This document shows, one piece after another, positions 1,746 to 58,241 of a DNA stretch of 64,000 nt; position 1 is the stretch's first letter; every line of letters begins with the position of its first letter. A program made the position numbers and the translations under genes. Source of the stretch: Lachnospiraceae bacterium (lineage in GTDB: Bacteria; Bacillota; Clostridia; Lachnospirales; Lachnospiraceae); assembly GCA_021201095.1 (NCBI GenBank), contig JAJQFO010000096.1, positions 1 through 64,000 of the forward strand, given 5' to 3'. The notes beneath the pieces were generated by a model that saw only the letters and a list, made by a program, of their open reading frames with translations, made no database searches and had not been told where the DNA came from.

Positions 1746-1866
1746 TTTTTACCTCCTAGTATAAAATATAATCGTGTCAGAACATAACGGTTCCATATCT
1801 TCTCAGCTGTTAAGCTTATCCCGCGCATTGTATAGAATACCCACCCCCGCAATCGGAGATTGGGGA

Positions 1867-1903
1867 ATATCCCATAGAAGCATGGAATGCCTCCCGGCGA
1901 GGG
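1867..1903 (-). repeat. Palindromic repeat, family P2, copy 1
   Basis: Read on the minus strand this segment is CCCTCGCCGGGAGGCATTCC followed by ATGCTTCTATGGGATAT. The same pattern with few changes is found at 28552-28590, and a diverged relative lies inside the TetR gene near 13880. The flanks (CGGGTTATGCCC and a segment with TCTCCGATTG) also recur in the TetR copy. It sits in the 183-base gap between deoC and the kinase gene. Confidence 0.6.
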
Positions 1904-1928
1904 CATAACCCGGCGGGAAAAAGCCTGT

Positions 1929-10522: not shown

Positions 10523-10809
10523 CTATGTCCTCCAAATTTACAGCCAAAGCAGTTCATGTCCGTTATATAACGTAAAAATCTTCTTTTTTGTCCGTTCCCT
10601 CCACGCGCTCACAGCCTGCCATTTTCATTTATGCCCCGCAGCGGGGCACACCATATGAGCATGAACAGACACATCGCTACAAGAGTATCAATTTATTCAT
10701 TACTTGTCAATCTGCGGAAATCTTAAAAATTCGGAAATCCATTGCCCGCCCCTGATCGAGCGGGAGGCGGCCTTTTTGCCCCCTGCCCGCCGCGCCGGCC
10801 GCGAGTTAT

Positions 10810-10850
10810 GTCATAAGGATTGCTGACGTAGTCAGAGGATTCCTTATGAC
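10810..10850. repeat. 41-bp palindromic element, copy A
   Basis: Inverted arms GTCATAAGGA and TCCTTATGAC enclose a smaller inverted repeat (CTGACGTAGTCAG). Copies with the same 41-bp span and matching arms occur at 11008-11048 and 39633-39673. Copies A and C also share flanking sequence, CTAATYTCCTTTCGCG followed by GTGCGCAT, so the repeated unit is nearer 90 bp. Confidence 0.75.
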
Positions 10851-10890
10851 GTGGGCAAAACCACTAATTTCCTTTCGCGGCTGTGCGCAT

Positions 10891-10937: not shown

Positions 10938-11007
10938 CGATTCATCAGCACAGTAACCGGATCAGGGAGACCTTCTCACCCTGTCCGCTGCATCGGCAGC
11001 GTCTAAT

Positions 11008-11048
11008 GTCATAAGGATTGTCGACGAAGTCGGAGAATCCCTTATGAC
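11008..11048. repeat. 41-bp palindromic element, copy B
   Basis: Same arms as copy A (GTCATAAGGATT and AATCCCTTATGAC) around a central CGACGAAGTCG. It lies 18 bases downstream of the stop codon of the radical SAM gene, between the gene and its terminator. Confidence 0.75.
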
Positions 11049-11065
11049 GTGGATTTTAGCAGGAA

Positions 11066-13471: not shown

Positions 13472-14212
13472 TCAGTCAGGCCGCCGCTCGTCCGAAGCCT
13501 GACGCAGCAGCTCCAGAGACCGCCTCATTCCTTCCGCCAGATCTTCTCTCATTCCATGCTCCAGCCACTCCAGAAGCACACCTTCCAGAGCGCATTTCTG
13601 CAGATTTCGGATCAGGCGCTGATCTTCCTCAGATAATTTTTGCATCTCGGGCATCTGGTCCACAGGCAGCACATAATTAGAAACCATATAGTCGCACAGC
13701 TGCTCCAGCTGATGCTGCAGAACTGCCCGGTCCAGAGAGCGGTAAATATGGAGGATTGCCCGTTTATTTTCCTGAAGCATGTCCACAATCTGTGTCAGGC
13801 CTTTCACCATATTTTCTGCTGTCTCCGGCAGGGCAGAATGCTCTTCCGGAACGCTTTGGGCGTCGCAGGAGCGACCTGCCCTCGCCGGGTTATGCCTCCC
13901 ATCTCCGATTGTGGGGCGAGGAGGCGTTTCCATAGCTCCTGCGAAACGCGCAGCGTTTTTAGCATCGCAGGAGCGACCTGCCTCCGAAGCGCAGCGAGGT
14001 GGCACTTCCATAGCTTCCTTCATGATCCGGTCCATTTCCCGTTTAAACGCATATTCCATGACATCCGTGATATCCCGGAAGTGATAATAAAAGGTGTTTC
14101 GGTTAATCCCGCACCGTTCCACGATATCCTTCACCGTAATTTTGGTAAACGGCCGCTCATTCAGCAGTTCAAAAACGGTCCGAATAATCAGCTCTTTTGT
14201 CATCATTGCCAT
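13472..14212 (-). CDS. TetR/AcrR-family regulator with in-frame repeat insertion
   Basis: Transcriptional repressor-like protein, 246 aa. The N-terminal DNA-binding domain is canonical (TKELIIRTVFELLNE, then TVKDIVERCGINRNTFYYHF). The C-terminal ligand domain resembles the DhaS/TetR_C_8 group (MVKGLTQIVDMLQENKRAIL). Between them, about residues 68-118, is a stretch rich in Pro, Arg and Ala that has no place in the family and holds an internal duplication (AGRSCDAKN and AGRSCDAQS). Without it the protein would be ~195 aa, the usual size. The inserted DNA matches the P2 repeat family. It is 40 bases downstream of the aldo/keto reductase gene and may control that operon; this is inference. Confidence 0.85.
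   Translation of the reverse strand: MAMMTKELIIRTVFELLNERPFTKITVKDIVERCGINRNTFYYHFRDITDVMEYAFKREMDRIMKEAMEVPPRCASEAGRSCDAKNAARFAGAMETPPRPTIGDGRHNPARAGRSCDAQSVPEEHSALPETAENMVKGLTQIVDMLQENKRAILHIYRSLDRAVLQHQLEQLCDYMVSNYVLPVDQMPEMQKLSEEDQRLIRNLQKCALEGVLLEWLEHGMREDLAEGMRRSLELLRQASDERRPD
13864..14015. repeat. Repeat insertion inside the TetR coding region
   Basis: TCGCAGGAGCGACCTGCC occurs twice (about 13864 and 13966) around GCCGGGTTATGCCTCCC and TCTCCGATTGTGGGG, which match the flanks of the P2 element near 1867-1915. The length keeps the reading frame open, so the element is translated. Confidence 0.65.
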
Positions 14213-21943: not shown

Positions 21944-22016
21944 TGGAGATAAGCGGAATCGAACCGCTGGCCTCTTGAATGCCATTCAAGCGCTCTCCCA
22001 GCTGAGCTATACCCCC
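21944..22016 (-). tRNA. tRNA-Ala (anticodon GGC)
   Basis: A 73-nt cloverleaf on the minus strand starting GGGGGTATAGCTCAGCTGGG. The anticodon stem CTTGA/TCAAG encloses the loop ATGGCAT, giving anticodon GGC. The T arm has GGTTCGATTCC, the discriminator base is A and CCA is not encoded. It is followed at once by an intrinsic terminator. Confidence 0.95.
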
Positions 22017-22082: not shown

Positions 22083-22273
22083 CCATGAAAACCCCAGAGT
22101 GCCGTTTCCCACCATCTGACTCCTGGCAATGCCAGGTGGGTGACCGCAGCGCCGATATCTGCCTTCCACTGCAAACGGAGGCCTGACATCAACCGGGCAA
22201 TATAGGAATCCCATTTAAAGTAAATGCAGGTTCAACACAGCAGGAGTGTCGAACACCCCAGGAATTTTTCACT
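22083..22273 (-). ncRNA. ssrS: 6S RNA (RNA polymerase regulator)
   Basis: About 190 nt on the minus strand. A terminal stem (TGAAAA with TTTTCA) closes a long rod containing segments typical of Firmicutes 6S RNA: ATTCCTGGGGTGTTCG, TGCTGTGTTGAACC and TTTAAATGGGATTCCT. It has its own promoter and lies downstream of icd on the same strand. 6S RNA mimics an open promoter and sequesters sigma-A RNA polymerase in stationary phase. The 3' end is estimated from the closing stem. Identification is from remembered sequence pattern and structure; a covariance-model search would settle it. Confidence 0.72.
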
Positions 22274-28190: not shown

Positions 28191-28729
28191 TTTAATTTCT
28201 CCTTCCATCCACCTTATATGCCGCATAACAGTTCTTCATCTGCGATTTGTTTTCCCTGAAATTTGTTAGGCAGCACTCTTTTTGTGGATTATAACATACC
28301 GCCCTCCATTTCTTCAATCCATTTTTCTGAATTTAGAGCTTCTTTTACCGCATTTGGCGCCAGCGACAAATGAAAGCGGGGCAATCCAGCAAAAGCGGAT
28401 TCAGCAGCTGTCATTTTAGCAGATTTTAATATTTTTAATCAGTTTTTCTCTATTTCCTGCACCTTTAAAATTTGCAGATCGCTTGTTTTCTGTTTCCTTT
28501 TGTGATATCATATGTTCGTTCTCGCGAAGCGAGTATGGACGAAGGCCGCGCCCCTCGCCGGGGGGGCATCCCACGCTTCGCATGGGATATACAATCGCGA
28601 AGCGATTCTTTCATGCGCGGCTTTCATTGTGTTATATCTCGAATGTCAGACAGATTTGTGCGTTCAGAATTTCTGTCCCCAAAATACAGACAAATATGAG
28701 AAGCTACTTTCATGAAATGGAGTGACGTT
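28191..28729. other. Intergenic region with P2 repeat and divergent transcription
   Basis: These 539 bases separate minus-strand and plus-strand genes, so promoters in both directions are expected. The part near 28515-28625 is a palindrome-rich GC island (CTCGCGAAGCGAG, CAATCGCGAAGCGATTC) around P2 copy 3. Overlapping track ORFs on the plus strand here are artefacts of the repeat. No gene is supported. Confidence 0.55.
28552..28590 (+). repeat. Palindromic repeat, family P2, copy 3
   Basis: CCCTCGCCGGGGGGGCATCC followed by CACGCTTCGCATGGGATAT, matching the minus strand of copy 1 (1867-1903) at most positions. It is flanked by two further short palindromes built on CGCGAAGCG. Confidence 0.65.
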
Positions 28730-39576: not shown

Positions 39577-39632
39577 GTTCGTACACCTCCACACATTGAT
39601 ATGACTGTTTGCCTGCGCCGGGCGCGGGTTAT

Positions 39633-39673
39633 GTCACAAGGATTGCCGGCGAAGCCGGAGAATCCCTTGTGAC
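39633..39673. repeat. 41-bp palindromic element, copy C, in the infC leader
   Basis: Arms GTCACAAGGATT and AATCCCTTGTGAC around CCGGCGAAGCCGG. The G/C changes relative to copies A and B are compensated on the opposite arm (CATAAGG/CCTTATG versus CACAAGG/CCTTGTG), which suggests selection for the hairpin. In the minus-strand mRNA it folds about 55 bases before the infC ribosome site. Confidence 0.78.
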
Positions 39674-39713
39674 GCGGGCAAAGCCGCTAATCTCCTTTCG
39701 CGACCGTGCGCAT

Positions 39714-43057: not shown

Positions 43058-44800
43058 TTATAATTCCTCCAGGACATAATTTTCTTTTTCACACACAACC
43101 TTGCACTTTTTCTTAAAGCAGGCGATTCCATATTTGTAAATGGTATGATATCCCTGAAGCTTCAGTTCGCGTGTGTAATCCATCCTTTCGATCTGAGCCA
43201 TCGCGTCTTTGCATCCTTCAGCAAGATGCGCATTATCAGCATACTTAAACTCCATGATCATGCCGATGCTTTCCCTGGCAATCTCGACCTTCACGTCGCA
43301 ATATCCATCGCCGCTGTCGGCATTCGTTTTCGCTTTCCAATTATCTACATTGGCTAGGATCCCGATCATAAGGCCATGGTAGAGAATCTCTTTCTTATCT
43401 TTTTGTACAGAAGAATCTCTTACCGTAATAGAATCATAAAGGTAAGATGTAAGCAGCTTTTCTGTTTTTTCCGCATTGCCAGTCTTTAACGCATCACAGA
43501 ATTCCTCAAACCGTTTGCTGTTTTTCCTGACCATGCTATTAAAGTATGCGGTGATCTGCCTGATAAAAATCTTTCGGATCTCCTTGTTTGGAATTGCGAG
43601 CTGATAAATATCTTCATCTGCTATCCCACGCTGCGTCAGATAGCCCGTTGCAAACAACACGCTCCATATATTGTCAATCGTGTCATAAATCTGATTATAT
43701 GTTAAATCCTCGTGGATTTCCTTCGAAATCGTTTCTCCCGCTACCAATGCTTCAATTTCACTCTTAGTTTGCTCATTACCTGATTTTTCAATTAATCGGC
43801 GTACCGCATCATTGCCGCTCGTGTTGGACCAGTAATCTTTGGGGCGTGCATCAGGGTCCCCGGTCAGTTCATAACAGTAACTGATAACATCCCATGGACA
43901 ATATACCTCCATATTGCCGAAGCGATATCCGTCATACCATTCCTTTACGGCATCATACTTATTATCAAGCCCGTAATAATTAAGGACTTCCCTGACTTCC
44001 CTATCCGTGAATCCAAAGTATTCATCAAAACGCACCGTAGTAATGGACAGAATATTGGGATTATTTAAACCAGTAAAAATGCTTTCCTTTGCCACGCGAA
44101 GGCATCCCGTTAGCACAGCAAAATATAGACTCTCATTGGATTTCAACGCCTTATCAAACATGCCCCGGACAAGCTTTACCATCTGAGGATAATAGTTTCC
44201 CTCGCTCGCTTTTGCCAGCGGAACATCGTACTCATCAATTAAAATAATTACCTTTTTCCCGAAATGTTTTTGTAAAAGATCGGAAAGTACACTTAAACTT
44301 CCTTTTATAACATCCTCCGACATATTGAAATAATCTGGATGATCCGGGTCAACGTTCACCAGTTTCTTATACATTTCCTTTTCCGTTTCTGTAAGACGCC
44401 CGCTTTCTAAAAGGAAATGGAACCTGAGTGCTTCCCTGCCAATTTCAGAACACAAATCGGATCTTGCACTCTCATAATCACTGCCGTCCACACTCTTTAA
44501 ACTGATCGAAATAACCGGAAATTTTCCCATGTATTTTTCGCAGAGCTGTGTCTCTCTGGAAATTTCAAGTCCTTCAAAGAGAGCGCTGTCACATCCAATT
44601 TCCAAAAATGCTTTCAGCATACTCATATTCAGAGATTTCCCAAAACGGCGCGGGCGGGTAAAAAGATTTACTTTTCCCCACGCGTTCAGTAAATCACGGA
44701 TCATTGCCGTTTTGTCGACATAGTAGAATCCCTCTGTCCGAATCTCGTGGAAATCATCAATCCCAATCGGGAGCTTCCTTTTCATTAATTTATCTGCCAT
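43058..44800 (-). CDS. AAA-ATPase-like protein with C-terminal PD-(D/E)XK nuclease-like domain
   Basis: 580 aa. The N-terminal AAA-ATPase_like domain starts with KLPIGIDDFHEIRTEGFYYVDKT and has the Walker A FTRPRRFGKSLNMSML, Walker B VIILIDEYDVPL. The C-terminal ~130 residues form the PDDEXK_9-type region with EIARESIGMIMEFKYAD (Glu-x-Lys) and KYGIACFKKKC. AAAGGAG lies before the ATG. Such genes are abundant in gut anaerobes, often in many copies, and their function is unknown; a link to DNA or mobile elements has been suggested. It appears to be monocistronic. Confidence 0.9.
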   Translation of the reverse strand: MADKLMKRKLPIGIDDFHEIRTEGFYYVDKTAMIRDLLNAWGKVNLFTRPRRFGKSLNMSMLKAFLEIGCDSALFEGLEISRETQLCEKYMGKFPVISISLKSVDGSDYESARSDLCSEIGREALRFHFLLESGRLTETEKEMYKKLVNVDPDHPDYFNMSEDVIKGSLSVLSDLLQKHFGKKVIILIDEYDVPLAKASEGNYYPQMVKLVRGMFDKALKSNESLYFAVLTGCLRVAKESIFTGLNNPNILSITTVRFDEYFGFTDREVREVLNYYGLDNKYDAVKEWYDGYRFGNMEVYCPWDVISYCYELTGDPDARPKDYWSNTSGNDAVRRLIEKSGNEQTKSEIEALVAGETISKEIHEDLTYNQIYDTIDNIWSVLFATGYLTQRGIADEDIYQLAIPNKEIRKIFIRQITAYFNSMVRKNSKRFEEFCDALKTGNAEKTEKLLTSYLYDSITVRDSSVQKDKKEILYHGLMIGILANVDNWKAKTNADSGDGYCDVKVEIARESIGMIMEFKYADNAHLAEGCKDAMAQIERMDYTRELKLQGYHTIYKYGIACFKKKCKVVCEKENYVLEEL

Positions 44801-54326: not shown

Positions 54327-54479
54327 TGTTGATTTATAATTAAAACTGACCCAGGTTTAACGAGTAAAACTGACCCACCCTGGAGGGCGGGGTCGTGAGT
54401 AAGTAATCCTGGTTCCATACACTGTACCTTGAAAATTTAACACTTAAAATTGACCCACCCAAGGCAGCCAATGTACAAT

Positions 54480-58116: not shown

Positions 58117-58241
58117 GGGTGGGTCAATTTTCAGTGTAAAATCAGGATGACAGATAAAACTGACCCACCCTAGGAATCGCTGTAAGTGGGTACCAAGATG
58201 GGTCAATTTTAAATGAAAAAGTGGGTCAATTTTACTTGACA
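58117..58241 (+). repeat. Right terminal repeats of the IS21 element
   Basis: Four copies of the GGGTCAATTTT/AAAACTGACCC motif at about 58120, 58158, 58200 and 58222, in inverted order relative to the left end at 54342-54456. These are IstA binding sites by analogy with the family. Confidence 0.8.

Follow-up and report, generated by a model that had tools for sequence, protein, structure and literature searches.

The window analyzed here, a stretch of 64,000 nucleotides from the genome of a Lachnospiraceae bacterium, contains a TetR-family regulator gene in which the DNA-binding and ligand domains are separated by translated repeat sequence (Table 1). Both domains score over their Pfam cut-offs, TetR_N (PF00440) at residues 9-53 with 38.3 bits and TetR_C_8 (PF14278) at residues 133-231 with 55.4 bits, and the ORF satisfies the criteria for the family, i.e. 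a TetR_N HTH together with a TetR C-terminal ligand domain. The sequence between the domains is EAMEVPPRCASEAGRSCDAKNAARFAGAMETPPRPTIGDGRHNPARAGRSCDAQ. An initial annotation of this DNA had described about 50 residues with duplicated AGRSCDA segments at this position, and it was right in both coordinates and content: the motif occurs twice, and its DNA copies, at 13847-13880 and 13949-13982, are 82% identical over 34 nt and form a direct repeat (D9) with a spacing of 102 nt.

Table 1. Coordinates of the TetR gene, the parts of its insert and the two intergenic sequences compared with it
Feature	Position	Strand	Basis
TetR-family regulator gene	13475..14212	-	ORF, 246 aa, carries the repeat in its reading frame
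Repeat unit 1, complete GA-cis element	13931..14013	+	RF02987, 42.8 bits (cut-off 34.7), full model 1-88
Repeat unit 2, tandem, degenerate or truncated (AMETPPRPTIGDGRHNPARAGRSCDA)	13847..13934	-	Direct repeat D9, sequence, blastn self-matches
Unit 1 variable arm T' (GCTCCTGCGA)	13965..13974	-	Complements 13935-13944; arms covary among copies
Unit 1 variable arm T (TCGCAGGAGC)	13935..13944	-	Complements 13965-13974
Second copy of arm T' (GCTCCTGCGA), in unit 2	13873..13882	-	Sequence; overlapping 16-nt word has two exact copies
Second hairpin module nested in unit 2 (CCCCACAATCGGAGATGGGAGGCATAACCCGGCGAGG)	13879..13921	-	Widespread in own genome
Intergenic second-module copy near 1867	1845..1915	-	blastn 25/30 nt, E=0.033; 14/14 and 13/13 nt pieces
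Intergenic sequence of similar style near 28552	28530..28590	+	Only an 11-nt match, E=4.9; weak alone

The TetR insert and its relatives

Two palindromic units in tandem make up the insert, and they share the same arm. Unit 1 meets the Rfam gathering cut-off for GA-cis (RF02987) along the whole model and, judged by Rfam's own score criterion, is a member of that family. Its Rfam orientation is antisense to the TetR gene, and reading it on the reverse strand gives AMEVPPRCASEAGRSCDAKNAARFAGAM. Unit 2 holds the nested hairpin module, to which the genome contains many further matches (query 110-152, 81-91% identity). In an AlphaFold2 model of the protein (mean pLDDT 75.8), the helices at residues 2-68 and 130-242 are confident and residues 71-127 have pLDDT below 50; this segment, with an intact domain on either side, is thus predicted to be disordered. 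It probably serves as an unstructured linker joining the DNA-binding and ligand domains, and we infer that it is nearly neutral.

In nine other members of the genus, the two halves of the TetR protein match query residues 1-67/70 and 132 onward and lie adjacent or a few bases apart; sequences were inspected for four of the nine. The closest two of this set (G032 and G001) have linkers of 40-45 aa, which contain no repeat words and are unrelated. A sister species (L208; MAG MI.9_6) has the same gene neighborhood, with flanks 90-94% identical in DNA, and its TetR gene is 50 codons shorter at the insert, leaving a linker of about 20 aa. From these linkers we conclude that the junction is tolerant, that the repeat landed in it or expanded it, and that the insert varies between sister species. 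The claim of an in-frame insertion that gave the regulator a new linker is therefore supported by comparison with close relatives, and the element can now be named as GA-cis, one unit of which carries a nested second module.

No GA-cis element was reported by nhmmer on the sister-species linker. A local alignment to the 5' core of the element (TATGGAAGATTCCCCTCACAGTGATTTGGCGG) is weak, with a score of 14 that was reached in 0 of 2000 shuffles and values of 9-10 in the other sequence scanned. It suggests a decayed 5' remnant of the element in the short linker, and because of it the insert may be older than the split from the sister species and later lost there, rather than newly gained here. 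Separately, the C-terminal half of the TetR gene is only 78% identical in DNA to the sister-species gene (L208, 2001-2588), far below the 90-94% of the flanking genes, which suggests a fast-evolving ligand domain.

GA-cis as a dispersed repeat of one genus

The initial annotation had also matched the insert to a dispersed repeat, citing copies near 1867 and 28552. The match holds genome-wide, with at least 57 DNA matches to the insert in the same genome (best non-self E=5.8e-12) in addition to the GA-cis score; the two cited copies, on the other hand, are weak when taken alone, and they belong to the second module and not to the GA-cis unit. At least 39 GA-cis matches at E<=1 are present in this genome, at least 26 of them over the cut-off, and the RF02987 search returned at least 29 matches here and up to at least 54 in relatives. 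Matches were found in 16 of the 60 genomes searched, none of them outside the genus in that set; in an order-wide sample of 295 genomes, five that belong to other genera within the family had 1-4 copies each. Many genomes of this one Lachnospiraceae genus thus carry at least 20-54 copies, compared with 0-4 in the sampled other genera. All of these counts are lower bounds. The compared genomes are mostly drafts and many are MAGs; contamination of the genome studied here is 5.35%.

A search for further in-frame copies, as had been proposed for checking the annotation, was productive in both the genome and the genus. Other copies of the repeat in this genome yield the same peptide, without any change of frame, in a GH2-type glycosidase (twice), in a transglutaminase-like protein and in an FeFe-hydrogenase. 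With a profile of five repeat peptides, further copies were detected in long ORFs there. Across the genus, 15 of 47 genomes gave matches at E<=1e-3, and many of these matches lie in ORFs of 300-1900 aa. Had the linker been present in all relatives and the DNA similarity not been significant, the annotation would have been refuted; this is not what we found.

In the orientation of the TetR gene, the unit is laid out as TATGGAAACGCCCCCTCGCTnnGCTCGGCGGCAGGTCG, arm T', ATTnnn, a small hairpin ACGCTTCGCGT and arm T, with a length of 75-81 nt. Perfect arms of at least 6 nt are present in 112 of 125 elements, and 98 of the 112 arms find at least 8 nt of their own complement, against 1.06 after arms were swapped between copies. 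There are 88 distinct arm sequences, and identity between copies is 51% in the arms and 75% in a 20-nt core. The covarying stem of RF02987 is thereby confirmed, as the arms vary among copies yet remain complementary. Copies at the same site in three genomes have an unchanged arm, and one site filled in four genomes shows a paired change from GCATCC/GGATGC to GCACCC/GGGTGC. Non-Watson-Crick pairs in the arms comprise four G.T and three A.C, too few cases to establish an RNA strand preference.

In 26 of 112 copies, where 0.6 would be expected, a repeat of the right arm stands on the left side of the element. Since most of these repeat the adjoining hairpin too, they are mostly tandem half-copies. 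Derivation of the arms from the target was considered and rejected: only about four cases (L165, L187, L195 and L199) do not look like tandem half-copies, and the arm is absent from the target at a clean empty site. Most sites have their own, nearly always self-complementary arm, and where different species share a filled site, the arms of their copies are identical or almost so. That the variable arms are remade at each insertion is a tentative idea, which we consider rather doubtful. If it were true, movement would write a new inverted repeat, e.g. by snap-back or template-switch copying, and would not be simple cut-and-paste or copy-and-paste.

Reading frames, host proteins and empty sites

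To characterize the flanks, we used 60 stretches around GA-cis matches from 10 relatives together with the set from the genome itself, giving 103 clusters in 11 genomes. These loci are the best-scoring matches and not a random sample, and same-site orthologs were counted separately and are non-independent. Genes were called from 300 nt on each side with a codon-usage model trained on 29 ORFs of the window, without transcripts or proteins. The model found the correct frame in 126 of 143 test windows, an optimistic figure because these came from the same ORFs as the training data.

Coding sequence on the same strand flanks both sides of the element at 62 of the 103 loci. Phase is kept across the element in 54 of these 62, where about 21 would be expected if phase were random, and 49 of the 54 copies are stop-free. 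By orientation, 25 of the phase-kept copies are sense and 29 antisense. One frame dominates among sense copies (19, 5 and 3), and the three antisense frames are used about equally (11, 9 and 8), so that all six frames are in use and the resulting peptides are unrelated. Among the 27 sense gene-internal copies, 24 have a length divisible by three, compared with 18 of the 39 copies that lack coding sequence on at least one side; the set used for frame and length includes loci selected by peptide and is biased to one frame. Taken singly, the frames are open in 63-82% of copies, compared with about 52% of mononucleotide shuffles. About half of the sampled copies thus lie within genes and can be read through, each lengthening an otherwise ordinary protein by some 25 residues that form a loop; in the absence of expression data, translation is inferred.

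Hosts include IleRS, TatD, FeFe-hydrogenase and ABC ATPases. In one IleRS (L196) aligned with the Thermus enzyme 1ile, query residues 226-265 are unmatched between 218 and 223; an example of an insert junction in IleRS is GDMETPPRSARR. A TatD protein (L180) has 27 residues between residues 101 and 104 of 2gzx. Other inserts fall within single Pfam domains, namely CobW, LBP_M (the central domain of lacto-N-biose phosphorylase), Fe_hyd_lg_C and ABC_tran. Apart from the TetR insert, with its predicted disorder between domains, solvent exposure of the insert sites was judged from alignment gaps only.

The cleanest pair of filled and empty sites comes from paralogs in the same genome. One (L124) reads RGLMTG-ITRITQ and the other (L118) reads RGLMTG-VLPYAERIGMGSTNCRRAERGGTTD-ITRITQ; at the DNA level, ATGACCGGA directly followed by ATAACAAGA is replaced by ATGACAGGA, 75 nt and ATCACAAGA, an insertion of exactly 75 nt. 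No target duplication longer than about 2 nt, such as would mark a MITE, is visible at this one clean empty site. Two other genomes (L158 and L169) carry the insert at this position as well, and another insertion site is filled in four (L154, L156, L164 and L167). As a separate observation, the window encodes at 43331-44791 (-) a predicted AAA-ATPase, related to PF09820/PF08011, of a large paralogous family with at least about 20 matches in the genome; several paralogs carry GA-cis.

Origin of the insert and comparison with known repeats

We consider it probable, at about 0.86, that the TetR insert consists of a tandem pair of copies of a non-autonomous, hairpin-forming mobile repeat, GA-cis with its nested second module, which has risen in copy number within one gut-type Lachnospiraceae genus. 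Insertions would fall in and between genes in either orientation, and those that keep a gene open, in length and frame, in a tolerant loop or linker would survive purifying selection; such survival would therefore leave about half of the sampled copies translated today as loops of 25 residues or of multiple units. Selection as the source of the frame bias is an inference. The repeat would spread by copying through an unknown mover, with copying as the mode likewise inferred. Because neither a transposase, in a search covering the Y1 type only, nor a target duplication was found, movement itself is inferred from the distribution and the empty sites. As a candidate mover we considered a RAYT or Y1 transposase, but the genome has only one partial Y1 match, and no GA-cis was detected beside it.

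Rfam models GA-cis as a structured RNA, and the family could instead be a cis-acting regulatory RNA whose gene-internal copies are mRNA regulatory structures, with translation a by-product. The strong covariation of the arms (98 of 112 against 1.06 when swapped) would fit this, as would two copies outside the high-copy group, L311 (G074, another genus; 1512) and L319 (G004, same genus; 1582), which stand directly before a Shine-Dalgarno sequence and ATG; this leader-like position may be the ancestral state of the family. Within the genus, however, about half of the gene-internal copies are antisense, the host genes are unrelated, and the non-Watson-Crick pairs, few as they are, show no strand preference. 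Placement upstream of genes, which is our reading of the family name and not a criterion of the Rfam model, is rare in the high-copy genomes: of 24 not-embedded copies checked, only 3 stand ahead of a Shine-Dalgarno sequence with a start codon. We therefore regard a regulatory role as improbable.

It is slightly less probable still that the insert is retained for its usefulness in proteins, as a flexible linker or binding site. Same-site copies do persist in three to four species and one sense frame is the commonest (19 of 27 sense copies), but an advantage of this kind is hard to reconcile with six frames in two orientations encoding unrelated peptides, with host proteins that share no function, with the predicted disorder of the TetR insert and with a sister species that lacks most of it. 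Chance openness of GC-rich, low-complexity sequence, without any repeat insertion, can be practically dismissed: such sequence is often open, as the shuffles illustrate, but chance would not produce genome-wide E-values down to 6e-12, an Rfam match over the cut-off, an empty paralog, relatives without the insert and phase kept at 54 of 62 loci.

The mobile repeat that we favor resembles the Rickettsia palindromic elements (RPEs), repeats of 100-150 bp that are found within genes as well as between them and leave intact the ORFs that they enter (PMC2229807, PMC3767692, PMC10969869). The initial annotation had drawn this comparison, and it holds for the behavior of the repeat. The likeness is closest to RPE-1 to RPE-3 and to the Wolbachia palindromic elements (about 100-150 bp), which are also palindromic repeats found between and inside genes (PMC10969869, PMC2229807, PMC3767692). 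As in Rickettsia and Wolbachia, copies are in frame in unrelated, often conserved genes, occupy the same site across species and lie in ORFs in nearly half of cases. As a palindromic repeat in frame in unrelated protein genes that it does not break, GA-cis fits the functional type of an RPE in this respect. The differences are that GA-cis occurs in a different phylum, belongs to a different structural family, has a shorter unit read in all frames and both orientations, and possesses hypervariable complementary arms and a nested second module. It works like the RPEs but, judged by the Rfam assignment and the phylum with no RPE sequence compared, probably forms a family of its own.

Among other repeats, ERIC, YPAL and short NEMIS are likewise known to form in-frame fusions (PMC2229807). 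The enterobacterial ERIC/RU-1, YPAL/RU-2 and RU-3 and the 107-bp NEMIS of Neisseria are small hairpin repeats with open frames sometimes fused to genes (PMC2229807), but their Rfam families differ from GA-cis, and most carry terminal inverted repeats along with target duplications (for RU-3 this is undetermined), none of which was seen at the one clean GA-cis empty site. REP/BIME sequences with RAYT transposases share the mosaic palindromic modules and tandem clusters; unlike GA-cis in this genus, REPs are mostly extragenic. The repeat also departs from RF02987 elsewhere in that many genomes carry it dispersed at high copy number; most copies do not precede genes, and they often lie within them.

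Of the publications on RPEs cited above, the 2024 review called a comparable process in other prokaryotes 'conceivable'. Our literature search for in-frame palindromic repeats in Firmicutes or Lachnospiraceae found no report, with most subscription papers outside its reach, and a search under the name GA-cis found no paper. Selfish DNA that survives by translation inside host proteins has been described chiefly for Rickettsia and relatives. Its independent occurrence in a genus of Lachnospiraceae, with tens of copies in each genome and insertions in essential enzymes, indicates that new protein loops can arise recurrently from short frame-tolerant palindromes. That a catalogued RNA family is apparently a mobile repeat in this genus matters for annotating both structured RNAs and proteins with unexplained insertions.

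The window contains several other features. A second palindromic repeat family (TCATAAGGATT ... TCCTTATGACG) is present at 10781-10854, 10979-11052 and 39604-39677, with at least 12 matches in the genome. A 26-nt inverted repeat containing GGGTGGGTCAATTTT, at 54435-54460 and 58117-58142, is 92% complementary, and its copies, 3.7 kb apart, could be the ends of a transposon-like element. Finally, a 6S RNA at 22087-22267 (-) is followed by a tRNA gene at 21944-22016 (-), both over their Rfam cut-offs.
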